Source of the DNA: a virus
Length of the DNA: 24,443 bases
IMG/VR virus record: IMGVR_UViG_3300029448_000155
Location: 1-24,443 of that record
Direction: 5' to 3' (one strand)
The position numbers and the translations under genes are program-made. Positions 1,133 to 20,100 of this stretch are shown piece after piece (positions within the stretch are counted from its first letter, which is position 1; every line of letters begins with the position of its first letter). The notes beneath the pieces are model-generated. The model did not search any database. It was not told the DNA's origin and saw only the letters and a program-made list of their open reading frames with translations.

Positions 1133-1294
1133 ATGGATGAGTACAATGACTATCTACTAAGCGTAGTAGATGTAATGATACAAAATAATATAAAGTTAAG
1201 GAGAAATAATGCAAAGAAAAGTAAATCAAAGAATATTCGCAGTGTTAGCAATGTTAACAATATGGATAACAGTTCACACATCAAAAATAGGTGA
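1133..1294 (+). CDS. Possible small protein, 53 aa, overlapping next gene
   Basis: An ATG frame of 53 codons begins eight bases after an AAAGG ribosome binding site and runs 86 bases into the next gene in another frame. The first half looks like a normal acidic helical peptide. The second half, inside the overlap, is low-complexity Lys/Ser/Asn. It may be a real short gene whose tail is unconstrained, or a leader peptide controlling the gene at 1209. Confidence 0.4.
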   Translation: MDEYNDYLLSVVDVMIQNNIKLRRNNAKKSKSKNIRSVSNVNNMDNSSHIKNR

Positions 1295-1562
1295 CATACA
1301 ACCAGATGTCAAAGTATTAAACAGAACTGTTAATTCTATGATGAATAGACTTATAGAATTAGAATCTAAACCTAGTGATACTACAGCTTTTTATAATTTA
1401 TATGAAGAGCAATATAGGTTTATAGAAGGTTTTGAAAGTAGCTCAACTTTTAAAGAGACTTTCAGAAAAATGAGAGCAGAATATGGAGCAGGGTATATCT
1501 TCCATTGGAATGAAGGATTGTTTACAACATATTTTGCAGAAGAAGTTAACGTTAATAAATAA
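1209..1562 (+). CDS. Single-pass membrane-anchored protein, 117 aa
   Basis: The ATG follows a strong AAGGAG site. Residues 1-8 are basic and about 9-23 are hydrophobic, a signal-anchor pattern with no obvious signal peptidase site, so the protein is probably tethered in the inner membrane with the rest outside. The region from about 38 to 70 is helical. The C-terminal part has aromatic residues and no known motif. It ends 18 bases before the Ubl gene, so the two may be cotranscribed. Whether it takes part in the conjugation system is unknown. Confidence 0.7.
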   Translation: MQRKVNQRIFAVLAMLTIWITVHTSKIGDIQPDVKVLNRTVNSMMNRLIELESKPSDTTAFYNLYEEQYRFIEGFESSSTFKETFRKMRAEYGAGYIFHWNEGLFTTYFAEEVNVNK

Positions 1563-1580: not shown

Positions 1581-1784
1581 ATGACTATCAAGTTATTATT
1601 AAACGGTGAGTTCGTTTCACAAGACATATCATCTGAAACAGTAGGTGATTTAAGAAATGAACTAAGCATTCCTAGTGATGCTAAAGTAATGGTTCAAGGC
1701 ACAGTTAGAAATAACGACTATGAACTAACAGAAGGTGAAGTTGTTGCTTATGCAAGTAACAATAAAGTAGGCGGACAAGCGTAA
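1581..1784 (+). CDS. Ubiquitin-like modifier precursor (Ubl), 67 aa
   Basis: Likely a beta-grasp protein of the ThiS/MoaD/ubiquitin superfamily. An N-terminal beta hairpin (about 1-16) is followed by a helix (about 19-28), then strands with a hydrophobic core, ending in VGGQA. Gly64-Gly65 matches the diglycine that E1 enzymes adenylate, but here it is followed by Gln66-Ala67, so a protease must expose it. At 67 residues it is shorter than ubiquitin and close to ThiS in size. The ATG has a good site (AAAGGGG). The downstream E2-like, JAB and E1-like genes supply the expected activating, transferring and trimming partners. ThiS and MoaD usually end at the diglycine and sit with biosynthetic genes. 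No such genes are seen here, so a protein modifier is favoured over a sulfur carrier. Confidence 0.8.
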   Translation: MTIKLLLNGEFVSQDISSETVGDLRNELSIPSDAKVMVQGTVRNNDYELTEGEVVAYASNNKVGGQA

Positions 1785-1795
1785 TAATTACGCTT
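1777..1795 (+). promoter_or_regulatory. Hairpin over the Ubl stop codon
   Basis: A perfect 8-bp inverted repeat with a 3-base loop includes the last codons and the stop of the Ubl gene. No T-run follows, so it is not a typical terminator. It could act as a 3' stability element or RNA-processing site that lets the Ubl message accumulate over the genes behind it. Conjugation systems need more modifier than enzyme, so this is plausible, but it is inferred only. Confidence 0.5.
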
Positions 1796-1803
1796 AATTA
1801 ACT

Positions 1804-1865
1804 TTAAATGCGGTAGATATGCTTTTAGCTATTATAAACACATCTAGCGGGTCTATCGCATTTAA
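1804..1865 (+). promoter_or_regulatory. Long-stem structured element C before E2-like gene
   Basis: Bases 1804-1817 pair with 1852-1865 in a 14-bp stem with one G-U pair, enclosing 34 bases. It lies immediately upstream of the ribosome binding site of the 510-aa gene. With the hairpin at 1777-1795 it fills the 111-base gap between the Ubl and E2-like genes. No T-run follows. It resembles elements A, B and D in layout. Confidence 0.5.
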
Positions 1866-1895
1866 TTAAACAGAGATTAAATAAAGGAGAATATA

Positions 1896-3428
1896 ATGGA
1901 AGACAAAGAGATTAAATATTTTAATGGAAATTGTGATGTAACAGTTAAAAGTATATCAGAACTTAATTTCTTAAATCAAGAAGAAATAAACAATTTGGCT
2001 ACTGGACCTCAAGATTTATTTTATGAAAAGCTAGATTATGTTAATAGAACTTTAGAATCTAATACTGGTTTTACTATTGATGTAACAAATAAATGGAACT
2101 GGAAACCAAAAACTTATGATAAAATGAAGAAATTATTGTATAAAAGACTTTATTTACATAAGAAAACAAATGGTTTAGATAATTTAGTAAACAGAACTGT
2201 TGATAGAGTTAATTATGTTAATTACATACAAAGAATAGTATCAGATATGGAATTTGAAAGACATAGACTTAAAAGATTAGGTGTTTCTAAAGATGTTGAT
2301 GTTGATGTATTTAAAGAAAAAGTAAAAACATTTACAGAATCTATAATCAAACAATGTAACGCAGTTTATGAAGCAACTGGGAAAAGAGTTTCAATAACAC
2401 CTTATTTTGACAAAATAACAAACAGAAATCCTAAACTGTACTATGATATTAAAATGAGTGAATTAGTGTTAAGTGTATTTGATGGTGAAAAATTAATTCA
2501 AGAAATAGAATTACCTCAATTGCATTTAATATTTTATATTGAACTTAGAAGAAAGTTAGGAACAAATAATGTTAATTTTAGTTCTTGTGGTACAACTGAT
2601 TCAATGTTAAAACTAAATCATCCATATATAGCAGTTAGAGGATATGATTATGGTAGTGTATGTCTTGATAAATATTTTGAAGATGTTAACAAAGCTTTGA
2701 AAAATAATGATGTAATAAATGCAGCATTTGTTTTATTGCAATGGGCTCAATATTATAATATTAAACATTCAAATCCGTATCATCAGCCGCATATGTCACA
2801 TATTGGTATGCCAGAATCATTTAGCAAAGAATATGTTGCATGTCAATCAAAAAGTGCAGTATTGCATCATACAGAAAGAGTTTTAAATAAATTTGCTAAT
2901 AATCTAGATTTAAATCAAGAAGATAAAGCTGAATTTATTGTAAAATCTTACGATGATATTAAATGTCAATTTAGAGATACTTCTAGTCATTATATCAAAA
3001 ACAAAGCAATAATAAATCTTTTAAGTAGTGAAGAAGGATTTAAATTGCAAGCTCTAGTTCTTACAATGACAGAATATTACACTGATTTAGTTGACAAAAT
3101 GGAAATTGTTAATGAAGAGTCTATGAGTCCAATATGTTCAGATATAAGAAGTTATTTTAGTTTAACTGTTCCTTATTGGTCTGCTTTTGATTCAGAAAAT
3201 GTATTTAACAGAGAATTAATGTATAATACAATTTTTGATAGATTATATCATTTCTTGTTTAATTATCAAATTGAATGCAAAGATTTCTTTTATTTAGATA
3301 GTGTAATACAATGGTTTGAAGATAAAAGATTGATTGAAAAAGAAAAGACAAATAATGATTCAGTTAACACAACAAAAACAATAGAGGAATTAACTAAAAC
3401 GTGGGCTTATAGCTCAGAAAGGGGATAA
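1896..3428 (+). CDS. E2-like ubiquitin-conjugating protein (putative), 510 aa
   Basis: A candidate E2-like transferase that would accept the Ubl from the E1-like enzyme on a Cys and pass it to a target. The core is about residues 180-300. A beta-meander-like stretch (about 181-213) is followed by a His242-Pro243 pair, then G-x-VCLD with Cys256, then a helix ending in LLQW (Trp283) and an Asn-Pro segment. This matches the order HPN...G-x-(I/V)CLD...LL...P in E2 enzymes, with a His-to-Cys spacing of 14 residues rather than about 10. At 510 aa it is far longer than a 150-aa E2. Long helical regions flank the core and have no recognised domain. The ATG has a strong AAAGGAG site. It lies between the Ubl and JAB genes, one base from the JAB start. 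The call rests on motif and context together, and structure prediction would be decisive. Confidence 0.62.
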   Translation: MEDKEIKYFNGNCDVTVKSISELNFLNQEEINNLATGPQDLFYEKLDYVNRTLESNTGFTIDVTNKWNWKPKTYDKMKKLLYKRLYLHKKTNGLDNLVNRTVDRVNYVNYIQRIVSDMEFERHRLKRLGVSKDVDVDVFKEKVKTFTESIIKQCNAVYEATGKRVSITPYFDKITNRNPKLYYDIKMSELVLSVFDGEKLIQEIELPQLHLIFYIELRRKLGTNNVNFSSCGTTDSMLKLNHPYIAVRGYDYGSVCLDKYFEDVNKALKNNDVINAAFVLLQWAQYYNIKHSNPYHQPHMSHIGMPESFSKEYVACQSKSAVLHHTERVLNKFANNLDLNQEDKAEFIVKSYDDIKCQFRDTSSHYIKNKAIINLLSSEEGFKLQALVLTMTEYYTDLVDKMEIVNEESMSPICSDIRSYFSLTVPYWSAFDSENVFNRELMYNTIFDRLYHFLFNYQIECKDFFYLDSVIQWFEDKRLIEKEKTNNDSVNTTKTIEELTKTWAYSSERG

Positions 3429-3429
3429 A

Positions 3430-4335
3430 ATGGATTTAAAAGATATGTTTTATATATCTGAAAAAGACTGGTATAAACTTCAAGGATGGGCTACAATAGC
3501 TTATGAAAAAGACAAGAATGAAATATCAGGATTAATGACAGCAATACCGCAAGAAGATGGTAGAATATTAATAAGCAATGTAGAAATATTAAAACAAGAA
3601 AACAGTGCTACTAATACAGAACTTGATGGTGAAGCTGTTACTGAATACATGATGAAATATGGTATGAAGTATAATAATCCTAATATGAAATTTGTATGGT
3701 GGCATTCACATCATACAATGGGAGCATTCTGGTCTGGAACAGATACTAATGAAATAGAAGCTTGGAAAAATACAAGTTATTCTCTTGCTTTAGTTATTAA
3801 TCTTAAAGAAGAATATCTGTTTAGAGTTAGCTTCTGGCAAAATAGCGGTTTACCTATAGAACAACACGTAGATACTACTCTTACGATAGAAAGAGAAGTA
3901 CCAAAAATAAATATTACAAAAGCTATGGAAAAGCAGTATGAAAAGCTTTGTGATAATAAAGTTACTATGGTTAACCGTAATTGGCAAATGAATCAAGTTA
4001 ACTTATGGAATCAACAAAAAGATAAACACAAACACGAAGATAACTATGCTTTATTACTAGAAGCTGTAGAATCATTGCAAGATGATTTTGTATCTGGAAC
4101 AATAAAGTATGTTGATTTCAAAAAAGAGATTGTCACACTTAATAAACAAGCAAAAGAAAGAAAGCTTCCATTTAAGGTAAAAACATTTACAGAACCAGCT
4201 GGAGAAGTTTTAAATCTGTTAATGACTAAAATGCCAGATGAGCTTATTGAGTTTGATAACAATAAAATCAAAAACGAGTTGGAAAGAGCATTAGACCCTT
4301 TTCAACATAAATGGGGAGGTATGTATGGCTATTAA
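3430..4335 (+). CDS. JAB/JAMM metalloprotease (Ubl-processing or deconjugating), 301 aa
   Basis: The zinc-dependent JAB/MPN isopeptidase motif is complete: Glu31, then His92-Ser93-His94, seven residues, Ser102, two residues, Asp105. This is the exact E...HSH-x7-S-x2-D pattern of active JAMM enzymes. The family cleaves after the Gly-Gly of ubiquitin-like proteins, so it could remove Gln-Ala from the Ubl precursor and also cut conjugates. Residues 1-150 form the domain. About 155-301 is a helical, charged extension without a known motif, perhaps for substrate or partner binding. The start is one base after the E2-like stop and the end overlaps the E1-like gene by 11 bases, so the three are probably translationally coupled. 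JAB domains also occur in phage tail-assembly peptidases, but no NlpC/P60 domain is present here. Confidence 0.88.
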   Translation: MDLKDMFYISEKDWYKLQGWATIAYEKDKNEISGLMTAIPQEDGRILISNVEILKQENSATNTELDGEAVTEYMMKYGMKYNNPNMKFVWWHSHHTMGAFWSGTDTNEIEAWKNTSYSLALVINLKEEYLFRVSFWQNSGLPIEQHVDTTLTIEREVPKINITKAMEKQYEKLCDNKVTMVNRNWQMNQVNLWNQQKDKHKHEDNYALLLEAVESLQDDFVSGTIKYVDFKKEIVTLNKQAKERKLPFKVKTFTEPAGEVLNLLMTKMPDELIEFDNNKIKNELERALDPFQHKWGGMYGY

Positions 4336-4990
4336 TATGCGTTCAAGAGGTCTTGTAGACAACTTAAATGAATTTAATTATCATATACTAGGTTGCGGTG
4401 CTATAGGTAGTGCCGCAGCTACCCAATTAGTTAGAATGGGTGCAGAAAACTTCTGTTTGTATGATAATGACAAAGTTGATACAGGAAATGTAGGTGTTTC
4501 ACAATATACATTGTATGATGTAGGTCATGCAAAAGTTGATATGTTAAAATCTAAAATATTAGATATTAATGATTCAGCTGAGGTAATGTGTGACGATAAA
4601 TTGTTTGACAATTATATCTATATGAATAGTAATGATATAATTATTCTAGGTTTTGATAGTATGAAATCTAGATTACAAGCAGTCAAAGCAATAATGGGGT
4701 GGCGTGAAAGTATGCCACTAGCTCTTATAGATGGTCGAATGGGAGCTGAACATTATCAACAATATGTTATACTAAGGCCTACATTGGCAAAGTATAAAGA
4801 AATATGGTACAGCGATGATGAAGGTAGCGAAGAACCTTGTAATATGAAGGCGACAAGCTATTGTAGTAATATGTCTGGTAGTTTTATTGCTAATGCTGTA
4901 AGAAAGTTGGTTACTGTTCAACCATTTGAGGAGTTTTTATCATTCCATTTTCCAACAATGTGTATAGATAAAAATACCTTGGTTAGATAG
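4325..4990 (+). CDS. ThiF/MoeB/E1-like Ubl-activating enzyme, 221 aa
   Basis: A Rossmann-type adenylating enzyme. Gly23-Cys-Gly-Ala-Ile-Gly28 is the nucleotide-binding loop. Asp47-x-Asp49 follows strand 2, with Asn55, Gln60 and Lys70 downstream. Asp111-x4-Arg116 matches the second ATP/Mg site. Near the C terminus, EPC (Cys172) and a second Cys180 precede a helix, in the position of the catalytic Cys in many bacterial E1-like proteins. The usual NxxRQ segment lacks Arg, and no CxxC zinc pairs are seen, so it is a divergent, minimal form. It would adenylate the Ubl C terminus and perhaps form a thioester for transfer to the E2-like protein. Its GGGAGGT ribosome site lies inside the JAB gene, and the genes overlap by 11 bases. 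Confidence 0.88.
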   Translation: MAINMRSRGLVDNLNEFNYHILGCGAIGSAAATQLVRMGAENFCLYDNDKVDTGNVGVSQYTLYDVGHAKVDMLKSKILDINDSAEVMCDDKLFDNYIYMNSNDIIILGFDSMKSRLQAVKAIMGWRESMPLALIDGRMGAEHYQQYVILRPTLAKYKEIWYSDDEGSEEPCNMKATSYCSNMSGSFIANAVRKLVTVQPFEEFLSFHFPTMCIDKNTLVR

Positions 4991-5069: not shown

Positions 5070-5744
5070 ATGGCGTTAAAAAAAGTCAAAAGGAAAGCTG
5101 TCTCTCAGAATCCAAAAACAATGCTATTATATGGAGCACCAAAAGTAGGTAAAACTACTGCTTTAAGTCAATTAGATGATTGTTTAATAATTGATACAGA
5201 AGGTGGTGCAAATATGATAGATGGATATGTAGAAACAGTAAATAGTAGAGAAGACCTAATAAAGTTATTAAAAGAGGCTAAAGAAGGCCACGAGTTTAAG
5301 TATGCTGCAATAGATACTATAGACAAAATAGCTGTATGGGCAGAAAAAGCAGTATGTGAAGAAGAACAAGTATCAGCTGTACAAGACTTAGCATTTGGCA
5401 AAGGTTTTGCTATGGTTAGAGAAAAAGTTCTTAATACAGTAAACATACTAAAAGAGATATTTCCTCATGTGATAATAATCGGACATAGGAAATGGGCTAG
5501 AGCTGTTGTAGACAGTAAAGCTATAGTTGAGCCAGAAAGCTTGGATTTAACAGGAAAGTTAAAGAACATGTTAATGGCAGATTGTGATGCTATAGGTTAC
5601 GTTTACAGAGATGATGAAAAAGGTAAGTTAATGGTATCATTTCAAGCTAATGAAGCCTTAGAAGCAGGTAGTAGAAGTCCTCATTTGAGAGGCAAAGAGA
5701 TAGAGTTAACATGGAATAATATATATAAAAAGGAGAGTAAATAA
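5070..5744 (+). CDS. Sak4-like RecA-fold ATPase (AAA_24 type), 224 aa
   Basis: A phage single-domain P-loop ATPase. The Walker A motif is G-A-P-K-V-G-K-T-T at residues 22-30. The strand IIDTEGG at about 40-46 and the Walker B-like strand YAAIDT with Asp82 follow, and a motif IIIGHRKWA lies in the middle. Length and motif layout match the AAA_24/Sak4 group, which are RecA-like single-strand annealing or recombination proteins often found beside a single-stranded DNA-binding protein. That fits the next gene, which begins at its stop codon. It probably works in replication and recombination with the primase-helicase downstream. The ATG follows an AGGAG site. Assignment to Sak4 rather than a related phage NTPase is inferred. 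Confidence 0.78.
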   Translation: MALKKVKRKAVSQNPKTMLLYGAPKVGKTTALSQLDDCLIIDTEGGANMIDGYVETVNSREDLIKLLKEAKEGHEFKYAAIDTIDKIAVWAEKAVCEEEQVSAVQDLAFGKGFAMVREKVLNTVNILKEIFPHVIIIGHRKWARAVVDSKAIVEPESLDLTGKLKNMLMADCDAIGYVYRDDEKGKLMVSFQANEALEAGSRSPHLRGKEIELTWNNIYKKESK

Positions 5745-6343
5745 TGGCGATATTTAAACCAGAGATGAAAAGCGGTAGTTATTCTAATTTCACAGGTATA
5801 TGTGAATTTGGAATACTAGAATTCAAAAACAGGTCAGGTGAGTTTGATTGGGCTGATTTGTTTATTGAAGTATCAGTTAAACAAAAAGGAAGTGATTTTG
5901 ACAGACCATTGGCTATTAAAGGGTCTTTCGACAAAGTAGGTGGAAAGATTACAGGTGGTAATGGTTTAACAAGACTGTATCATTTCTTTGACCAAATAGG
6001 TTGTGATGCTGGTATTAACGTAGATGGTGGTTGGGAAACAGCTAATGGCGAAGAAATTAAAGATATAGAAAAATATCTTAATGATAATTTTGTTGTTGGT
6101 AACGGAACAGATACACCTGATTTAAATTACTTAGGTTATTTCTACAAAGAACAGCCTAAAGTTCCAGGTGGCAAAGCATATACTAGAGTTTTATCTAAAG
6201 TATACAAAAATGCTACAGAGAACAAAGCTAAGTTAGAAGATGATGTTCAATGGATGAAATCTAAAGGATATTTAAAAGAGTTTGTAGAAGGTGATACTGC
6301 AAGTCAACCAACTATGGACCAGAGTGCTTTAGGTAATCTATAA
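5744..6343 (+). CDS. Probable ssDNA-binding-like protein, 199 aa
   Basis: The start codon shares a base with the stop of the Sak4-like gene, and its own end overlaps the primase-helicase start in the same way, so all three are coupled. The N-terminal 90 residues alternate hydrophobic and polar residues like a beta barrel, with several aromatics. The middle (about 95-145) has an acidic helix. The C-terminal tail is polar. No catalytic motif is present. Phage Sak4 proteins often travel with an SSB, so an OB-fold DNA-binding role is a reasonable guess from position and strand pattern. The sequence alone does not prove it. Confidence 0.55.
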   Translation: MAIFKPEMKSGSYSNFTGICEFGILEFKNRSGEFDWADLFIEVSVKQKGSDFDRPLAIKGSFDKVGGKITGGNGLTRLYHFFDQIGCDAGINVDGGWETANGEEIKDIEKYLNDNFVVGNGTDTPDLNYLGYFYKEQPKVPGGKAYTRVLSKVYKNATENKAKLEDDVQWMKSKGYLKEFVEGDTASQPTMDQSALGNL

Positions 6344-8097
6344 TGTATGTCGAGATAGCTAAAGGTACTCCTGGCAATAGAGGGTATTTAATCAATAAAA
6401 ACGACCTTGGTAATTTTATTAATAAAAAACCATTATACAGAAGTGTTTATCTATATGATGATGAAGCACTTAAGTATGTAGAAGATAATGAAACATTAAA
6501 AAATTATTTTGGAGTTAGATATATTGATAAAATACCTATTGATATTGACAAGAGTGGTAATTCAGATGAGAAAACTTTAGATGTCTTGAGAGGTGTTATT
6601 CTAGAGCTGGAGGATGCAGACATTACGGAAAATAGTTTCCAATGTTTCTTCTCTGGCTCTGGTTATCACATTGATTTAGCTGGTAAGTTATTTAACTTTA
6701 AATCGGGTGTTGATTTGCCTTATATAGTCAAACAAACACTCAAAAGTTTAATACCTGATTTAGATTCATCCATATATATGCGAACTGGTATTTACAGAGT
6801 TCAGCATACTATTAACCAAAAAACAAATTTATATAAAATACCTTTGTATAGAGATGAGGTTATGAATCTAGATGCAGCTGACATACTAAAGTTAGCTAAA
6901 GTTAATCGTAAAGATTATAATTACTTAGGATTACAAGGTGACGGAGAGTTAGAGCATACTGTAAAAGAAGAAGTTCCTGATGTGCAAGTATTTAATAAAA
7001 TATCGGAACCAAATAAAATAGTACCTTGTGTACAATCAATGTTAAATCAAGGAGCAAAGCAAGGAAACAGACACATAACAGCACTAAGAATAGTAAGTCA
7101 TTTTAAAAGACACGGCATTCCTAGTCATTATGCTAAAGTTATGATGCTTCATTGGAATAACAAAAGTATGCCAGAAAAAGAAATAATGGAAATGGTAGAG
7201 AATGTATATAACAGAAACTATAAGTATGGTTGTCAAGATTCTGTTATGGTAGAACATTGTAAAACACAATGCATATTCTTTAACAAAAAAGACTATATGA
7301 TAGATGTCAAATCATCAAATGATATGCAAAGCGAGCTTCACGAAAGATTAAACACTGATTTTAGCGGTAAAACTATAGACCTAGGTAGGGCTTTAGGAAT
7401 AGAAAAAGAATCAGTTATATATCCAGGTGAGTTAGTAACTATATTTGGACCAACAGGGTCTAATAAGACTACTTTTGCTCAAAACTTAGCACTTGGTGTA
7501 GACTTTGTTAATAATAGAATTGTTAAAGATTGGCAAATACCAACATTATTCTTGAGTTTAGAACTTTCATCTTGGTATATGCATAGAAGACATTTACAAA
7601 TAGTGTCAGGAGTTAGTAAGAAAGAAGCTAACGACAATTATGCAGAACTATATAAGAAACACGAAGATGAAATGTCACACTTAATGGTTCAAACTGTTTC
7701 ACCTACTTTAGATAAGATAGGCGAAAAAGTTAGAGAGTTAGAACCTTCATTAGTAATCGTAGATTATATTGATTTAGTAGACACACCTCATAATGTTAGA
7801 GGTGAATACGAAAAAATTAAATATATATCTCACGGACTGTCTAGTATGGCAGTAAATAATGATATGATAGTTATCCAAGTATCTCAAGTAAGCAGAGAAT
7901 ATAGTCGAAACGAAGTGCTTGACCTATATGCAGGTAAAGGTTCAGGTGCAATAGAAAATGCGTCTAGAAAAGTGATTGGTCTTAATGGTCAATCAAATTC
8001 AGCTACTAGAGCAGTTAAGTTATTTAAAAACACTGATGGAGAGTTATTCGATACTGAAGTCGAATGGACACCATCGTTTAGATTAAGGAGAGTATAA
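6343..8097 (+). CDS. Primase-polymerase fused to RecA-type replicative helicase, 584 aa
   Basis: A bifunctional replication protein. The N-terminal half looks like an archaeo-eukaryotic primase (PrimPol): a hydrophobic strand with Asp67-x-Asp69, then SGSGYH with His109, then Asp141 and an R-T-x2-Y-R...N-x-K-T-x-L-Y-K segment (147-165), matching the family's metal-binding, nucleotide-binding and basic motifs in order. A linker (about 200-340) contains Cys/His residues. The C-terminal half is a RecA-like SF4 helicase with a phosphate-binding loop at 369-377 and Walker B VIVDY with Asp474, plus a downstream QVSQ motif at about 507. The loop reads GSNKTT, with Asn where Gly normally precedes Lys. 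The fusion would prime and unwind at the phage fork. It is coupled to the preceding gene by a one-base overlap. Confidence 0.85.
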   Translation: MYVEIAKGTPGNRGYLINKNDLGNFINKKPLYRSVYLYDDEALKYVEDNETLKNYFGVRYIDKIPIDIDKSGNSDEKTLDVLRGVILELEDADITENSFQCFFSGSGYHIDLAGKLFNFKSGVDLPYIVKQTLKSLIPDLDSSIYMRTGIYRVQHTINQKTNLYKIPLYRDEVMNLDAADILKLAKVNRKDYNYLGLQGDGELEHTVKEEVPDVQVFNKISEPNKIVPCVQSMLNQGAKQGNRHITALRIVSHFKRHGIPSHYAKVMMLHWNNKSMPEKEIMEMVENVYNRNYKYGCQDSVMVEHCKTQCIFFNKKDYMIDVKSSNDMQSELHERLNTDFSGKTIDLGRALGIEKESVIYPGELVTIFGPTGSNKTTFAQNLALGVDFVNNRIVKDWQIPTLFLSLELSSWYMHRRHLQIVSGVSKKEANDNYAELYKKHEDEMSHLMVQTVSPTLDKIGEKVRELEPSLVIVDYIDLVDTPHNVRGEYEKIKYISHGLSSMAVNNDMIVIQVSQVSREYSRNEVLDLYAGKGSGAIENASRKVIGLNGQSNSATRAVKLFKNTDGELFDTEVEWTPSFRLRRV

Positions 8098-8306
8098 TGG
8101 GATGGTTAATAAATATAGCTTGGCTAGAGGATAGATTTGTCCTTATATTATTTACTATAATAAGATTCGGTATTTATAAGAGCAAAAGAGCTCATATAAC
8201 TGAATTAAACTTGTTTGTTGGATTATGGAAATTTGACATAAAAATAAGTTTAGGTAAATTAAAAGATGTAAGGATAAAAACTTATGGCGAAGTTGGAAGA
8301 GCATAG
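8097..8306 (+). CDS. Hypothetical protein, 69 aa
   Basis: The start codon shares a base with the helicase stop, with AAGGAG just upstream, so translation is probably coupled. Residues about 12-26 are hydrophobic and could be a short membrane segment or buried helix. The remainder is basic with beta-strand character. No family is recognised. Its 3' end overlaps the HNH gene by 23 bases. Confidence 0.6.
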   Translation: MGWLINIAWLEDRFVLILFTIIRFGIYKSKRAHITELNLFVGLWKFDIKISLGKLKDVRIKTYGEVGRA

Positions 8307-8793
8307 TAATAAGAGGTACTACAAGCCAAAAAGGGGACGAAAGTCCCCTAACAGGCTTACTATCTGGGAACAAAAATTTAGTAAAAAGTTAAAAAGACAT
8401 CACGGAACTTTTGCTAAAAGAACTTTTCATAGATTAATGAAAAAATCATCTACGTTAAGGTCAACATTAAAAAGAAGGAGTAAAGAATATGAGGTCGAAT
8501 TTAATATATCACTTGAAGAAGTTAGAGAACTTTTATATAGAGTTTATGGAAAAAAATGTTGCTATTGTCATAGTAAACTCGTTGTTAGTAATATGGTATG
8601 TGACCATATTTTACCTCTTTCTTTGGGTGGCAATTCAACTCCTCCTAATTTACAGATGATATGTGGAAGATGTAATACTAGGAAAGGTCCATTAACAGAT
8701 AGAAACTTTAGAAGATTATTAAAATGGCTTGACAGACAACAAATAGAACTTAAAAAATATGTTCTTAGAAAGATGTCAAGTAGAGATTTTTAA
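8284..8793 (+). CDS. HNH endonuclease, 169 aa
   Basis: The C-terminal half is a canonical zinc-containing HNH nuclease. Cys92-x2-Cys95 and Cys127-x2-Cys130 hold zinc, and Asp107-His108, then LGG, Asn122 and Cys-Asn131 form the beta-beta-alpha metal active site. The first 75 residues are strongly basic and probably bind DNA. The nuclease nicks or cuts double-stranded DNA. In phages such proteins are homing nucleases or packaging-associated nucleases. Placement after replication genes, far from any visible terminase, favours a free-standing homing-type enzyme. The AAGGA site lies 8 bases before ATG, and the start overlaps the preceding gene. Confidence 0.88.
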   Translation: MAKLEEHSNKRYYKPKRGRKSPNRLTIWEQKFSKKLKRHHGTFAKRTFHRLMKKSSTLRSTLKRRSKEYEVEFNISLEEVRELLYRVYGKKCCYCHSKLVVSNMVCDHILPLSLGGNSTPPNLQMICGRCNTRKGPLTDRNFRRLLKWLDRQQIELKKYVLRKMSSRDF

Positions 8794-10971: not shown

Positions 10972-11152
10972 ATGTAAAAAATGTGGAGAGCTGATTGGAC
11001 ATAGTGCTCCTGTTTACAAAGCATCAAGAGGGTTTTTAGGTGAAGACGGTACTTTTCATGAAGATGAATCAGTTGTTATTCATATGGATTGTTATTATGA
11101 TTTTACTTATGACCCTTTTGTAGCTATAGAAAAAGCTATAAAAGATAATTAA
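10964..11152 (+). CDS. Small zinc-binding protein, 62 aa
   Basis: Cys4-x2-Cys7 near the N terminus and His40-x2-Cys43 further on form a likely single zinc site of treble-clef type, common in small phage proteins of unknown function. It starts eight bases before the end of the previous gene. It is the last plus-strand gene: its stop codon overlaps the stop of the giant minus-strand gene. Confidence 0.7.
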   Translation: MIKCKKCGELIGHSAPVYKASRGFLGEDGTFHEDESVVIHMDCYYDFTYDPFVAIEKAIKDN

Positions 11153-14100
11153 AATAAATCAAAACTACTACCAGGAGTAGGAGGGCTAGCAGAATTGAGC
11201 TGTGAGCTTGATTCTTTTGCTATTCCTGACATTGGAAAGCCAAATACTTTTTCAGGAATTCTCATTGGATTCTTAAATATGTTTTGCTCAGGATGAAATA
11301 AATCTCTTCCCATTCTTCCAAACGGAAACATAGTCCACATATAATAATCAGCTAATTTAGTATAATCATCTTCAGCAAGTTCTCTTACAATAGATATAGG
11401 AAACCTTGCTACAGGAGGAGTTATCATTTGAAGCGGAGCTAATGCTCCAGGATAAGTTCCAAAGAATGCTCTTTCTCTAGTTTTTTCATCACCAAAAAAC
11501 CAATCAGCTGTATCTTGGAACCAAGAATAAGGAGCTGGTATAGTTTGCTCAAACATTGAATACATAAATGCTGAACCTAAAGCCATTACCATAATATCAG
11601 CAGTCATCATTCTTTTTAATTTATTCATTCCAGGACTACCTTCTTTATAACCATATCTTTTAGCTTGTTTTCTTACATCATTTCTAAATCTTACAGCATT
11701 CCAAGCCCATAATTGAAAACGAGACATTACTTTACCAACACCAGAACGAGCAAAACCAGGTCTAAATGGAGCTGAATACAAAAATTGAGTAGCTTTTACA
11801 CCCCTGTTAGCTATTTCTATTAATATAGGGCTATTAGGGTCTGTAATTGCACCACCTAATCTTTCATAAGCTTTAATATAATGAGACATCCAAGCATCTT
11901 TTCTTATATGTCTTTCTGGAATAGTCATAAATTTACCAGCAATATCAACTATTTTATCTGTTAATTTGTATTTTTTCTTTAAATAAGACAAATCTTCTTT
12001 AGTTACTTCTTTGTTACCTGTAGCTTTAGAAGCAAGTTCATTAACAAAATCTTGATTTTTAAGAGCACGAATACTTTTGTCTAATCCTAATTCTGATTTA
12101 GCCATTTCTAATTGAACACCGTGTTCATCTAAAAATTTAAAAACATCTTGTTTTGTTTTAAGTTTAGGATTTAATGTCTGCAAATAATCGTAATTATATA
12201 CTTTTCTCATAGCATCAGTTCCCACAGATTGCCAAGTATGCATACTACCACCAAACACATTATTTATAGGAGTTTTAGGATGAGTCATTAAACTAGCTAA
12301 TTGAAATCTAGCCTCAATGTTAGATAACTTTTGAACATCATAATTATCAAGCCCTTGTAATTCTTTAGGTAATTTACCATCTTTAATTAAGCCTAATGCT
12401 TTTCCCATTTTATTAACATTATTAGCTGCTATGTTATCAGCAAACCAACCAGCTGGAGTTGTAGAAAGATGCAAACCAGGGTTATTCCAAGCAGCTTCAG
12501 AAACTACTGTAGGCATACCTTGTGCTTGTTTAACAAAATCAGACCAAAAATAATTCCAATTTTTAACTACTTCCTTAGCTTCGTTAAAATCAGCTTCTTT
12601 ACCTTTTTTAGCTGTTTTTGTAGAACTATTATACCATCTAGGATTTTCTACAATGTTTTTATAATTAGTTTTATTCATTGAGTTCAAAGTCCACCTAGTT
12701 AATAAATTTGTCAAACCCCCATACAGGTCTCTAGTTGTGTTTTGTATATACATAGAATGTATAGCTGGGTCCATTAACCATTTAGTTTTATGGTATTCTC
12801 TTTTTTTAGAACTTCCAGCTCTACTTGTAATACTAGGTAAATTTTGAATATTTAATCTTGATTGTTCTGAAGCAACTAATTGAGCTTTCATAGCAGGAAA
12901 CATAGCTGCATCTAATGCAGTTTGAAAATCAACTTGTTGACCTATTTCATAATCTCCAGTTTGAAATTTATATCTATTTACTAATGATTTATACTCAGTA
13001 ATATAATCATTAAGACCGTTTTCATACTCTTTATTTCCTTTTACTGTTCCAGCTGTTACATTTTTAAGTAAATCATTATATTTTTTAGAAACTTCAGCTA
13101 ATTCTTTATTTAAAGTTTCCTTCATTCCACTGTTGTCAGGCCAATAATGAGGAACGTATCCTTTTCTTTTGCCTGTTAAAGGAACAATAACTTTTTCTAA
13201 TTTTTTTATATTAACGTCTTTATCAGGTAACCAACCTTTTTTATCTTTTAATTCTTTATACTTAGATATACTAATAGTTTTTTCAGTAGTTTTTTTAGTC
13301 TTTGGATTGTAAACTCTTTTTACATATTGAGTAATAGGCATTAATTCAATAGCCATAGAATTCATTAGTTGTCTCATACCATCAGCACCTGCATGAATAG
13401 CAAACTCTAATGCTTTGTCAGGACCTTTATAATAAGCTTTAGACAAATCAGTCATAAATCTGTTTATATTTAATATTCTATGAGTTTTATAAGTTGTTCC
13501 CCCAGGGTTCATATCATAAAAACCAAGAGTATACTCTGCTAAAGGATGTTTTTTCCAATTATTAGAACCAGATTTTTCCCATAAATATTTTTCATTTTTA
13601 GGTATTTTAGAATATTCTGCATTAGATATAGTTTGGAAAACTCCTCTATTAAGTTGGTCCATACCATTATAATGATTTTCCATTATATTTTCTACCATTT
13701 CAACAATTTTTTTACCATTGTATGTTTTTCTAGTTTTTTCACCTAAATCTAAAACATACTTTTTATTTTTTAAAACATCCCAAGATAAACCATCTTGAAT
13801 TCTTTTAAGGTTATCTTTATATATTTGTTGTATTTCAGGAGTTTCATAGCTTACTCTACTTTCTCTTGTAGCTAAAGCTATATTATGAAGGTCAATTCCT
13901 TCATTGCCTGGCAATTGGCTTAAAAATCTTACTTTTTTAGTCAAATCATTTACTAGCCTATTAGAATGAGCTTCTTGCATACTCGAAACTCTATGTATTT
14001 GACCTTGCATTATTTCGCCATGAGAAGTTGGATATAAAACATCTACTTCTTTTGGTTCTCCTTTATCCCAAGATTTTTGATATTTCTTTTTATGAACTTT

Positions 14101-17100
14101 TACTACAGCTTCTGATAATTGTTCATTACTTACCATTAAAGGAAATTGCATTTGATTTCTTGCTTTTAAAGATAATCTTTTTAATAAAGGAAGTTTTTTC
14201 TCCCAACGCTTGTGCATACTTCCTTCTTTCAATTGTTTATAAGTAGCTATTATGTTTTTATAATCTTTTAAATTTAACTGAGAAATAGGTTTCATTACAG
14301 GGTCCATAGGGTCTATATAAGAATAAAGCATTTCTATTGTTTTGTCAAATTTATTCATATCAAAACTAGAATCGTTTTTTATTAGATTTGCAAGCTCAGA
14401 TACTACTTCTCTTTGCTCTTGATTCACATTGCCTTTTCTTAAATCTTTTAAATTTTCTTTTATATCTGAAACCGCATTAGACAATTTTATTTCTTTTATT
14501 TTTTCGTTAAAATCCATTGACTTAAGTACTTTGCTTTCTTTGTACTTTTTAACATGATTCTTTACTTTAGGAGGTATATTTTTATTTGTCGTTGTTGTAG
14601 TAGGGTTTGTATACAATCTTCCTTGTTCTTTAAGAAATTCTATTAAATTTTTACTAGCTATTTCTTTAGAGTTAAAAGCAGTTAATGTAGTATTTGCTCT
14701 AGCGCCTTGTTTGTATAAAGCTTTTAGTCCTGGCTGTTTTAAACTATCTTTTTTAGGTAATCTAAAAAACTTTTGTTGTTTTTCATTAGTACGTTTACTT
14801 CTTAATGAACCTAACATATAAAAATCAAACATATCTTTAGCGTAATCTGAAGATAAAGACTCTTTAAATTGTCTTATTAACATATCTGTTTGAATTTGGT
14901 CTAATACAGCTGTCCCTTTAGTTTTATCTAGTTGTTTTGCTTTTACACTAGAAGGTTTACTTTTTTGTATTGCAGACATCAATTGATTAATTTCTGGAAC
15001 TTCTGATTTTCCATATGTTAAGTTACTTTCATCTACTGTTAAATGTATAGGTTCTTCACTGCTTCTTTGTTTTTGTTTTTTTCTATCATTATTTTTAAGA
15101 AATTCAGTAAAATCTTGTATTTTTCTCATTTCATCTGCTTGTATTTTTTTATTGTTTTTAACAGATTTTTGATATTGTTTAAGTATAACATTTAAAGAAG
15201 CACTTTCTGTTACAGAATTGTCAAGATATTCTTCAGCTGTACGCAAAGAATTTTCTAATTTTGCAAGCACTTCTGGTTGAGTATCTTTTTCTTTAATGCC
15301 ATGCCAATAGTCTTCTATTTTAGCTTTACGAAACATGTTTATAATAGATTTAGGAGATTTTTCAGAAAGCTGTTCTCTTTTCCATCTATTATTTAATTGA
15401 TTTGCATAAACAAAATTTATTTGTTTTTGTATAGTAGGTTGTTTTAAAGTAGTAGCATCTAATAGTTTTCTCCATCTATTTTGATTTCCTAAATTACCAA
15501 CTACTTTATTATGAGTATTAATTAATTTATCAAATTTAGCCTTATCTAATCTGTCAAATGTTGTAACTCTAGTGTCTACAGGTTTTAACATATTAGCAAT
15601 ATGAGGAAGTAAGGATGTTTTTCCTTCTTCTGGAATACGTTTTAAGTTTTTTAATAATCCTTGGACTTCATCAAAACTCCAACTTCTATTGTTTTTATAA
15701 TCCCAACCAAAAAAAGCACTATTTAAATTAGATATTAAATCGTATCTACTTTCTTTGGACACATTTGGAGTGTATTTTCTTTTCATACCTAATGTTAATT
15801 TATTATAAAAAGGAGCATCAGGAACTACACCTTCTTCAAATCCAGTTTTACCTGTATTTAATTCCATTACTTCAAATTTCTTTTTACTATAATAAGCTTT
15901 ATTTAATAATTTTTGCATTCCACTATAATCTATTAATCCAAGAACGTTTGCAGGGTCAGCTGTATATCTAACAAGAGCAGAAGATAACCATATTTGTTTT
16001 CTTTTGTCAACTTCACTTGATTTAGCTTCTCTAAATATTCTATATGCAATAGGGTTTGGCAATTTAACACGTTTTCCGTTTACGTTTTTGTGAGTCATAG
16101 TACCAGTTTCCATAACATCTTGACCACCGCTTCCAACTACTGAGCTCCAAGCTATTCTAGAATTTTGAACCAAAGATACAGCAGAAGGCATAAGCTGCCT
16201 AGAATCAGCAGTTTTTTGACCAACCATACCTCTAATTGATGGCGAAAATTGCATATAAGGATTTAAATTAGCTTCATTTTGTGACATATCGAATAAAAAT
16301 TGTATTCTATCTTTTAATTTAACTTCATTTAAGTTTGAATTTTCTGGTTTTACTGCTTCTTGTTGTATCATTTTTTCTACATCTAAAACTATATCTTTTT
16401 TAAACATATCTTTAACGTCTACAAATTTACCTGTTTCTGGATGTATAAATTCTTCAGATTGTCTTTTATACATTTTTATATGTTCAGGTCTAAGACCTTG
16501 ACCAGCTCCATCTGAATGTCTACCTCCAAAAAATACAAAATCAGAATCAGCGTCTAAATCAGCACCTCCTAGCATTTCCATGGCTCTTCCATGTAAAAGT
16601 GTACCATAATCATTTATACCGCTAAATCCTATCAATTTTAACGCTTGAGCACCAGATGCTGCATCTTGAGGAACTCTAACTGTTAGTCCTGTTAGCAATT
16701 CTGCGTATTTAGCTTTATTAACTGGATTTTTTTCTATTTCAGATGCTTTTAATGTATCTTCTAATGTTGATTCTTTTCTTTTAACAGAGTCATAAAATGG
16801 TAATTTTTTATATAAATTGCCTAAAACTAATAATTCATGAGAAGGAACCCCGTGCATTTTCATAGATAATTTATCATCATTAAGCTGAGGAAACTTTTCT
16901 TGTAAAGCTTTGTCATAAGGTCTCATTCTACCTTTTAATGAATTTTTTAACTTAGGTTTAAATACTTTATCAGCTATAAATTTATTAATAGCAGCTTGTA
17001 CAACTCCTCTTGTGTATTTTCCGTGATATAAAGGAAATTGATTTTCACCTAAAGAAGCAGCATGTTGTATAATATTATCTGCAGCAGTTCTAAAGTCAGC

Positions 17101-20100
17101 AATGTTATTCATTTGTCCTTCTAAATTGCCTAATTCAGCTTCCATTCTAAGGTTTGAAATAGATTTAGCTGAAGAATTTATCATTTCTAATATCATTTTA
17201 TTAGCAAGTGATTCGTTTCCAGGAGTAGTTAATACTTTTTCTATTTGTCTTATTCCTAAAGTATCAAAATGTTCTTTTATAAAAGCTTCTTCAGTACCTG
17301 GTATAGTTGCTTTTTCTTTTAAAATTTTAGATAATTCTCTATTTGATGATTCTTGTCCATTAAAAGCAGATTCGGCTAAATCTTTTTTCCAATTATTTAA
17401 AACAGATGCATTAGCAGATTTTAACATATGCTCATGTGGCATTATGTTTAATTGTTTTGGAGTAGGAACACCTACATGTTTACCATTTTTTATTCCAAGA
17501 CTATTTACAGAATCATATACTCCATAATTATATCTAAACGAACCTGGGTCTATTTCTATTACTTCAGCGCCTTCTGTTAACTCTAATTTTCCATTTTTTA
17601 TCTCATAATTACCAGATTTATATTTACCTAATTGCTTAGCAGAACTTTCATATATTATAAAATTAATACCATCTCCAAGCTTAGGATTGTTTGTTTTAAA
17701 CTCTCTCATCATTTTAGCCATATCAGGCAAAACCTTATGAGACATATATTTAGCTATAATACCATCTTGAAAAAATACAGATTTTTCTTGTCCTTGATAG
17801 TTTCCACCTCTATCTCTTTGCTGAGCATTTATAGTTTTGTTTTCTCCTAATATAGCTCCGTCAGTAGATTGTAAAAGTTCAGCATTTTTAGCCCCTACTA
17901 ATTCAACAAGTTTATTAGAATCTCTAACTATAACAGCTTTATAATTACCTTGTTCGCTTAATTTAAGATTGCCTACTTCTCTAGTATTGTTAATAAACAT
18001 TTTATCACCTCTCCAACCAGTGTTCATTAAAACAGGTAATCTTTTGTTTAGCTTTACAGTATTATTAATATATCCATCTTTGCCAATAAATAAACTAGCT
18101 TCTGATAGAGGTATATTATTTATAGCAGCATGATAGGCAATGTTTGATTGCATTCCTTTTATTTCATCTGCAAATGTTGTTTCATATAAAGACTTTAATG
18201 CATCTCTACTAGTTTCTTCAGATAATTTAGTTTTTACATCTTGAGGTATTTTAACTTTCTTTAAATCTGGATGATATTTGACAAATACTATTTTATCTTT
18301 ATCACCCTCTCCTCCCCAAATATGCATATCGTGTTTTTCTTTCATTTCCTTTACAGTATTAATAATTGCTTTTCTTTTACGTAAATTTGCTTCTTTAAAA
18401 GCAGCCTCATATGTTTCGTATTTAAGATTACCTAAACCATCAGCTTCAGAAATAAGTCTATTTGCCATAGTGCTTTCATACCTAGTAAGCTCTATACCAT
18501 CAATTCTTTGCAAGTAAGTATGTACAGGGTCGTCTCCTTTTTTACCGTATCTATTAAATTCTTTTTCTAATGGACTTTCAGGAGCGTTTTGACCTTTCTT
18601 ACCTAAATCAGATGATAATTGAATAGAACCAATTTGTCCATCAGTATTAATTTCACTAATAGGGTTTCCATATTTTTTAGCAACAAGCCATTGACGTAAA
18701 CTTCCTTTTAATTCTTCTGGAAGAGTTTTATATTTTGACTTTGCTTGAATTTCATTTATAAAATCAGTAGAGCGAGTTTCAAATATTCCCTGTTCATTCA
18801 TCTCTAAATCTTGTTTGCTTTTTTTAATATACTGTTCAGATATAGAACTAGCAATTTCAGATATTTCATTTAACTTGTTTTGTCTAGCAATATTTTCTGG
18901 AAAATCTTTAACAAATTTTGCATCATTTAATAAGCCATATATAATTCTGTTTTTTAAATCTGAATTAAGTTGAAATTCAACAGTAGAACCAGTTTCAAAA
19001 TTAGACAAATCAATATCAAGGTTATTTTCTTTTTTTATAGTTTCAATGTTCTGACCTTTGTTATTCGCTGCAAATGACTGTTTTTCAATCATATTATGCG
19101 CAATGCTCATTACCTTATTGTTTACATTGTTTGGCGTTATAAAGGCTATTTTATCGCCTAATTCGGGTATTGTGTCTATTATCTCAAATGTTCCAAATTC
19201 TTTTGTAAGTGGATTTTCTTTAGCTGGATTCCACTTAAGAGTTCCTAATTCTTTATTTATAACATATAATGGTTTACCTGTATTTATAGCTAATTGACCA
19301 TTTATTTTTTGTAATAAAGCTAGACCATCTAAAGAGCTGTTTACCTTAGCATCGGCTATAACTATAGAGTCTGCTAATCTCATCCTATATGCATCCCTTC
19401 TTAAAGCTTTATAAGCATTTCCAGTAGTTCCATATCTAAGAGAATTTACGTCAAAGTCTCTTACATCTGCTCCAGCTTTTCTTGATATTTCTGCTCTTCT
19501 GTTGTAATCTTGAATAGCACTAGAAACATACTTGTCTTGTTTGTCTAAGTTTCTAGGTGTAATAATAACTTCATCACCCTTACCAACTTTACCACCTCTT
19601 TGGTTAGGCATTTTTATTTGAAAGGTATTAATGCCTTCTTCAGCTGCTTTTTCTGATAATATAGAGTCAAATCCTCTACTACCAGATGTTAATATAAATT
19701 TGTCTTTATTTTTAACTATAGGTTTTTTAACAACTTTAATTTTTTTGGTTTTTTTAGACATTTTATCATTGCCTAATTTTTTAGCTTCTGCAAACGCTTT
19801 TTCTTTAGAATTTTGATACCATCTTTTTTGTTCTTTAGTTAAGGGTTTTTGTTTAACAAAACCTACTTCAACGCCATCTATTTCTACAGTATATCCTTTT
19901 TTATTTTTATTCCAAGTAACAGAGGGTATTTGGTTTTTTATAACAACTTCAGGTTTTAAAACCATATTATCTAAATATTTAATAGTTTGCTTTTTAGTTA
20001 AAGAAGCGCCTGTTTTAGATAATCCTAATTCTTTATTAACATTATATTGTTTAAATTTTCCATATCTAGAATGAACTCCAAAATCACCTGGTTTTAATTT

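Follow-up and report, generated by a model that had tools for sequence, protein, structure and literature searches.

A candidate phage-encoded ubiquitin-like conjugation cassette with jointly exchanged E2-like and JAB genes

The DNA considered here, referred to as the window, is a stretch of 24,443 nucleotides (positions 1 to 24,443) from the 35,972-bp IMG/VR virus record IMGVR_UViG_3300029448_000155. Four adjacent genes in it encode a ubiquitin-like protein (Ubl), an E2-like protein, a JAB/JAMM metalloprotease and an E1/ThiF-like activating enzyme and, judged from their sequences, probably form a self-contained and reversible ubiquitin-like conjugation system that the virus itself encodes in its early module. 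Such a phage-borne Ubl/E2/JAB/E1 cassette had been proposed by an initial annotation from the sequence alone, and the proposal is supported by a conserved gene order, active residues that do not drift, the fold of the Ubl and the presence of the cassette in other phage lineages. Within the marine lineage the E2-like and JAB genes are hypervariable and are exchanged together as one block. The four genes and their products are as follows.

1581..1784, + strand: Ubl, 67 residues, beta-grasp, ending in NNKVGG followed by a two-residue tail, QA
1896..3428, + strand: E2-like protein, 510 residues
3430..4335, + strand: JAB/JAMM metalloprotease, 301 residues, with a variable C-terminal domain (about 168-300)
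4325..4990, + strand: E1/ThiF-like Ubl-activating enzyme, 221 residues, with a single adenylation domain

Both these positions and the tight packing of the last three genes agree with the initial annotation: a single base separates the E2-like gene from the JAB gene, and the JAB and E1 genes overlap by 11 bases.

Collection of related loci

Relatives were collected from viral contigs by searches anchored on E1 and on JAB, which returned 367 E1 and 80 JAB loci; the degenerate patterns employed may miss relatives. The best 80 of the 367 E1 loci were examined, profiles of all four families were run on every open reading frame (ORF) of each locus, and the loci were collapsed to 75 distinct E1 loci. 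Gene order was assessed in the 36 marine-type loci with at least 4.5 kb of sequence upstream of E1. Loci without the full gene set are short fragments, three gut or Flavobacterium phages, whose E2-like and Ubl proteins are too diverged for the profiles, and one unrelated chromosomal ThiF gene.

Ubl, JAB and E1

The AF2 model of the Ubl (pLDDT 85) depicts a strand-strand-helix-strand-strand beta-grasp fold with a floppy C-terminal tail, for which Foldseek finds Mth1743, the ubiquitin of Caldiarchaeum (C. subterraneum), NEDD8, ThiS and ubiquitin, all at a probability of 1.00 and with a best E-value of 1.3e-3. At the sequence level the Pfam family ThiS is matched by 6 of 25 members of the Ubl family (best 2.8e-4), the window Ubl alone has no Pfam match, and PDB sequence profiles give chance-level matches only. 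The small protein ending in GGQA is a beta-grasp Ubl with a C-terminal diglycine, as had been proposed, and the GG is invariant (47/47), preceded by Val in the window and by Thr in some relatives. In 31 of these 47 proteins the chain ends exactly at GG, while the remainder carry unrelated tails (QA, IK, AK, SK, C, K, KKQ, VINK, WTYYIIR and longer ones). A fixed diglycine followed by varied tails is the pattern of a modifier with a working GG end that sometimes needs trimming.

The JAB protein harbors the complete JAMM motif EX(n)HxHx7Sx2D, formed by E31, H92-S-H94, S102 and D105, which is invariant in all 66 relatives where it is covered (E31 in 65/65). The corresponding pattern is found in 141 of 146 JAB ORFs and in none of 2899 other ORFs. 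Its matches to the Pfam families JAB/Mov34 and Prok-JAB (2e-4 each) are marginal, both lying just under the curated cut-offs, and Rpn11 is matched at 8e-4. The protein is a predicted deconjugase and Ubl-processing enzyme.

The E1 is recognized by Pfam ThiF at 8e-18 (64.8 bits, cut-off 28.1). Its adenylation domain retains the ATP-site residues D47, D49, N55, K70 and D111 in 75/75 and R116 in 74/75, and the catalytic Cys172, located in the segment EPCxMKATSY, is kept in 72 of 73.

The E2-like protein

The 510-residue protein comprises an N-terminal region with a conserved KWNWKP motif, a core (about 136-306) bearing the signature HPYI…GSVCLD…NPYNQP, and a helical, hypervariable C-terminal domain (about 320-490). 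The HP...VCLD motif seen earlier is present as HPY and CLD, and Cys256 is invariant in the 54 relatives where it is covered. The E2 motif occurs in 85 of 128 E2-like ORFs, fragments included, and in 0 of 1384 others; as the pattern was written from the family itself, this count speaks for specificity and not for discovery. Neither the JAMM nor the E2 motif is a chance occurrence.

An E2 fold, on which the initial annotation had staked its reading of this protein, is supported in part. AlphaFold models the protein with confidence (pLDDT 85, core mostly >90), and the core of the model proceeds from a helix (136-160) through strands to 216 and a strand at 229-235 to H242-P-Y (242-244), Cys256, helices to 285 and NPY-x-QP (293-298). 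This resembles the order in UBE2D2, which is helix, sheet, HPN, CLD, helix, PNPDDP. Among the weak Foldseek matches in the PDB, UEV domains (Vps23, TSG101) come up repeatedly and have the top probabilities of all (0.09-0.18), and in a viral library the significant matches are unnamed close relatives only, with a Faunusvirus E2 at E 0.1. A profile of the core scores 21.0 against five human E2s, the highest of 100 column-permuted nulls being 18.5, and the alignment is centred on the catalytic cysteine.

Several results weigh against this assignment. No match of the 510-residue model to the PDB is significant in Foldseek, and the comparison with the human E2s reaches a P-value of just 0.013. The protein goes unmatched by the E2 models of Pfam, NCBIfam and PADLOC, and a profile comparison with bacterial (Cap2-type) E2_B domains yields a non-significant E of 0.29. 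Furthermore, His242 of the HPN-like motif is replaced by Phe or Tyr in 21 of 54 relatives. PDB sequence profiles likewise give chance-level matches only. The case for an E2-like protein, built on the motif, the order, the intact cysteine and weak structural and profile matches and not on any significant database match, is good but not conclusive, and this assignment is the weakest of the four.

That weakness, together with ThiS and ThiF being the nearest sequence families of the Ubl and the E1, respectively, gives some room to a sulfur-carrier pathway, in which the E1 would make a thiocarboxylate on a ThiS/MoaD-like Ubl for nucleoside or cofactor thiolation, the JAB would only mature the Ubl and the 510-residue protein would be a sulfur-using enzyme with a nucleophilic cysteine. 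We consider this improbable. The motif and topology of the 510-residue protein are of the E2 type. Most Ubls are made in mature form, which makes a JAB dispensable for maturation, yet one is always present, and the E2-like and JAB proteins co-vary and are hypervariable (see below), unlike a metabolic enzyme. No rhodanese, ThiG, MoaE or other sulfur-transfer family was found among the proteins scanned, where an E2-like protein and a JAB are present instead. An ordinary thiamine or molybdopterin gene was rejected.

Conservation of the cassette in a viral lineage

The order Ubl-E2-JAB-E1 is found in 36 of the 36 marine-type loci that can be tested. The E2-JAB and JAB-E1 junctions are always near-touching or overlapping, and the Ubl gene lies between 1 and about 1250 nt upstream. 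Related phages in which the four genes were scattered without co-occurrence, the outcome that would have spoken against a functional set, are not what is observed; the crAss-like and Flavobacterium phages described below keep the order as well. The four-gene cassette is a hallmark of the whole uncultured marine lineage. In two loci the reading frames are broken, namely in the JAB gene of L006 (L006:1153-2071) and in the E1 gene of L025 (L025:4093-4718), by sequencing error or decay.

Longer relatives encode a terminase, a major head protein and a portal of the P22-like type. The early-module genes of one 52-kb relative all share a strand, with most of its structural genes on the other.

The cassette is likely restricted to viruses: a scan of 84,980 species genomes, by a pattern search that can miss relatives, gave two loci only, while the same alignment finds 367 among viral contigs. 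The two are a chromosomal ThiF-family gene and a crAss-type contig in a Spirochaetia metagenome-assembled genome. The latter (L153, SABI01000248.1; E1, UDG and other genes) is probably a case of misbinning or of an infected sample. Bacterial Ubl-E2-JAB-E1 operons do exist (PMC1779556), and the phage cassette might be such a host defence or plasmid operon, recently captured and devoid of a fixed viral role. This is very unlikely, and recent capture of a host defence island was rejected, given the rarity in genomes, the deep diversity among viruses (E1 identity falling to 56% among the matches listed) and the fixation in the lineage.

Exchange of the E2-like and JAB genes

Over the roughly 23 kb they share, the window and record IMGVR_UViG_3300012953_000118 (L029/L176) are mostly 97-100% identical. 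The exception, apart from minor dips elsewhere, is a block at about 1900-4350 which corresponds exactly to the E2-like and JAB genes and displays 60-92% identity. For this pair the synonymous divergence (dS) amounts to 0.53-0.54 in these two genes versus 0.015-0.056 in E1, Sak4, the gene for a 199-residue protein and the helicase, and the ratio of nonsynonymous to synonymous divergence (dN/dS) of the E2-like gene is 0.54. Further close pairs behave alike, with E1 proteins 94-98% and E2-like proteins 59-70% identical. The two genes move between phages as a single unit, the behaviour one would expect if they were paired modules for target recognition.

The same partition is seen across the lineage. 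Identity to the window has a median of 31% for the E2-like protein and 32% for the JAB C-terminal domain, compared with 65% for the Ubl, 70% for the catalytic part of JAB, 63% for E1 and 84% for Sak4. Distances in the E2-like protein and in the JAB C-terminal domain are correlated after removal of E1 and Ubl (partial r 0.67), the value for the catalytic part of JAB being 0.33. Variation within the E2-like protein peaks at residues 380-490, and the motifs of its active site and N-terminal region are conserved.

The simplest reading of co-varying and co-swapped domains is that the E2-like protein and the JAB C-terminal domain recognize the same target, which differs between nearly identical phages. 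This target could be one of the virus's own replication or virion proteins, the Ubl then serving to control replication or assembly with no host protein involved. The location of the cassette among Sak4 and primase/helicase genes, or among primase and UDG genes in gut phages, is in line with such a self-directed role, and so is its universal presence in the lineage, like that of a core function. Neighbouring replication proteins are, however, 98-100% identical between phages with different E2/JAB alleles, so that two very different E2s would have to act on one and the same viral protein if the target lay in this shared stretch, which favours a host target; as the comparison covers about 23 kb and not the whole genome, a viral partner may be encoded elsewhere. 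On balance a purely self-directed role appears rather unlikely.

Related cassettes in crAss-like and Flavobacterium phages

A search of phages with E1 yields 77 phage records at about 26-32% identity, most of them from crAss-like and Flavobacterium phages, and their neighbourhoods contain a Ubl-domain protein, an E2-like protein, a JAB and a ThiF inside a primase/UDG region. Ten gut and Flavobacterium phages keep the order with diverged proteins (L033, L034, L035 and L155-L161), among them crAss001 (gp79-gp76, L034), and in Flavobacterium phage FpV4 the genes are ALN97163-ALN97166. In a tblastn search of INPHARED phages neither the 510-residue protein nor the JAB of the window has a match, and the helicase matches no phage at 1e-20.

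Marine and gut JAB proteins align over their full length (hhalign E 2e-38) and are orthologous over this whole length; the gut and Flavobacterium proteins carry HSH…SG-D, complete in 9 of 10, the row of DAC15 beginning inside the domain. All ten E2-like proteins of this group keep HSH(V/I/L/C)…C(L/T/I)G. Profiles of the marine and gut E2-like families match weakly (E 0.06, and E 0.005 off the cysteine in another comparison), so the link is made mainly by position and motif. The Ubl domains end in (K/R/S)SG. In cr106 (L155:671-1874) an annotated HNH gene is situated between a 92-residue ORF that consists of the Ubl only, ending in KSGKF, and the former extension, and its position marks the boundary of the Ubl domain.

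In comparison with the marine cassette, crAss001 gp76-gp79 and FpV4 share the order, the location in a replication region and orthologous JAB and E1 proteins. They differ by low identity, by a long C-terminal extension of the Ubl, whose domain ends in (K/R)SG, and by the E2-like active site HSH(V/I)…C(L/T)GxGPI. Neither the crAss001 nor the FpV4 record labels the genes as a Ubl system; in the former, one is called metalloprotease, another thiamine biosynthesis protein, and the remaining two are hypothetical. These names in crAss-like and Flavobacterium phages are probably misannotations, the products being better read as deconjugase and E1. In an E1 tree the marine and gut phage groups lie apart from Cap2 and other chromosomal ThiF-family sequences, on the side of PRTRC and Bil; branches are long, and the order among marine, gut, PRTRC and Bil sequences is not resolved.

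Comparison with bacterial and phage systems

The initial annotation had likened the cassette to Bil, PRTRC and type II CBASS sets, and each of them does share chemistry or gene order with it. Bil (BilABCD) has the same four activities and, as read from the BilD loci L197 and L198, the same order Ubl-E2-JAB-E1. BilA carries two Ubl domains (PMC11354881) and has 173 residues in L197, whereas the phage Ubl is a single domain of 67 residues. BilD, of about 443 residues, combines an inactive and an active adenylation domain, compared with one domain in the 221-residue phage E1. BilB has a CEHH motif; the 510-residue phage protein has HP(Y) instead and lacks His at 8 and 13 residues past Cys256 (CLDKYFEDVNKALK). 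The phage JAB is longer, with its variable C-terminal domain, and the cassette is located in phage genomes. An assignment to Bil failed on the architecture of Ubl, E1 and E2 despite the common order.

A role like that of Bil, which reportedly tags structural proteins of invading phages, can nonetheless be envisaged: the cassette would be a weapon that tags the structural proteins of co-infecting phages while the JAB protects the virus's own. The Bil gene order and the paired variable writer and eraser would fit this, but the genes sit among early replication genes and are fixed in the lineage, and we regard such a use as quite improbable.

The PRTRC clusters of plasmids and genomic islands (presumably Iyer type 6d) share the order Ubl … E2-JAB-E1, a short single-domain E1 and a JAB of about 210-230 residues (PMC1779556). 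Here the assignment failed on model scores, which are far under the cut-offs for ThiF (27.2 versus 144.75 bits) and A (13.3 versus 101.8), B and C giving no match; the E, F, D and ParB partners were not found. CBASS type II Cap2/Cap3 and 6A-MBL have E1, E2 and JAB chemistry in common with the cassette, and the phage E1 weakly matches PADLOC E1-E2 models. In the phage, E1 and E2 are separate and a dedicated Ubl is present, whereas Cap2 of CBASS II is an E2-E1 fusion. No CD-NTase was found among the ten early-region proteins scanned and no MBL gene nearby, and type II CBASS was dismissed on the unfused E1 and the missing CD-NTase. Tail proteins I and K of phage lambda also pair a Ubl with a JAB (PMC1779556); they differ in lacking E1 and E2 and in acting in tail assembly, outside an early module.

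Genomic context

The surroundings of the cassette in the window comprise the following features.

1209..1562, + strand: 117-residue protein with a hydrophobic N-terminus, the next gene upstream of Ubl also in L004, L005, L007, L011, L017 and L026
1770..1895, + strand: Ubl-E2 intergenic region with two RNA hairpins (minimum free energy -29.6 kcal/mol, z -4.0 versus 200 shuffles)
5070..5744, + strand: Sak4-like ATPase, first gene 3' of the cassette (phrog_124 1e-32, AAA_24 2e-25)
5744..6343, + strand: 199-residue protein between Sak4 and helicase, no family above cut-off
6343..8097, + strand: primase-like/DnaB-like helicase (phrog_19 4e-29, DnaB_C 9e-15, PriCT_1 weak)
8284-8793: HNH/endonuclease VII-like gene 3' of the helicase, its position kept in the lineage

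The Sak4 and helicase genes share the strand of the cassette in a coherent operon headed by the cassette, and this position suggests that it is expressed early. The 117-residue protein might be functionally linked to the cassette. The hairpin at 1777-1795, at the Ubl stop codon, was also recovered by a terminator scan. The intergenic hairpins (1770-1895) have no Rfam match; they possibly represent an attenuator or an mRNA-stability element, which could set the ratio of Ubl to E2. Two giant proteins of 3503 residues (window 11149-21660, - strand) and 2610 residues (L003:7052-14884, - strand) have no Pfam or PHROG match.

Proposed mechanism and implications

A reaction cycle can be outlined. The JAB would remove whatever follows Gly65 of the Ubl (QA in the window), most relatives' Ubl being made in mature form already. 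The E1 would adenylate the Ubl C-terminus and capture the Ubl as a thioester on Cys172, from where it would move to Cys256 of the E2-like protein. The variable helical C-terminal domain of the latter may select the substrate without a separate E3, so that the Ubl would be joined to amino groups of the target, and the JAB would remove it again by means of its co-varying C-terminal domain.

The cassette lies next to replication genes and is retained throughout the lineage, which speaks for a core early function. Most likely it serves to modify proteins of the host (or of the virus) while the phage takes over the cell or replicates its DNA. We tentatively propose that these phages run their own Ubl system as such a core function and, in an arms race against host proteins that vary, diversify its choice of target through exchange of E2/JAB alleles that pair a writer with an eraser, a scenario that is plausible but far from secure.

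No description of a phage or crAss Ubl system was found in the open-licence literature; many journals lie outside it, which makes this a weak indication of novelty. In bacteria, ubiquitin-like conjugation is a known host weapon against phages. An apparently complete and catalytically intact tagging kit of tag, activating enzyme, transfer enzyme and tag-remover, conserved among the early genes of phages, reverses these roles; it suggests that some phages chemically tag proteins in infection and that viruses, too, make use of Ubl tagging. If true, this would be a fully virus-encoded counterpart of the hijacking of ubiquitin by eukaryotic viruses, present in cultured crAss-like phages of the human gut. 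As crAss001 grows on a laboratory strain of Bacteroides (B. intestinalis) the system is testable, and the swapped E2/JAB block would provide a natural handle for finding its target.

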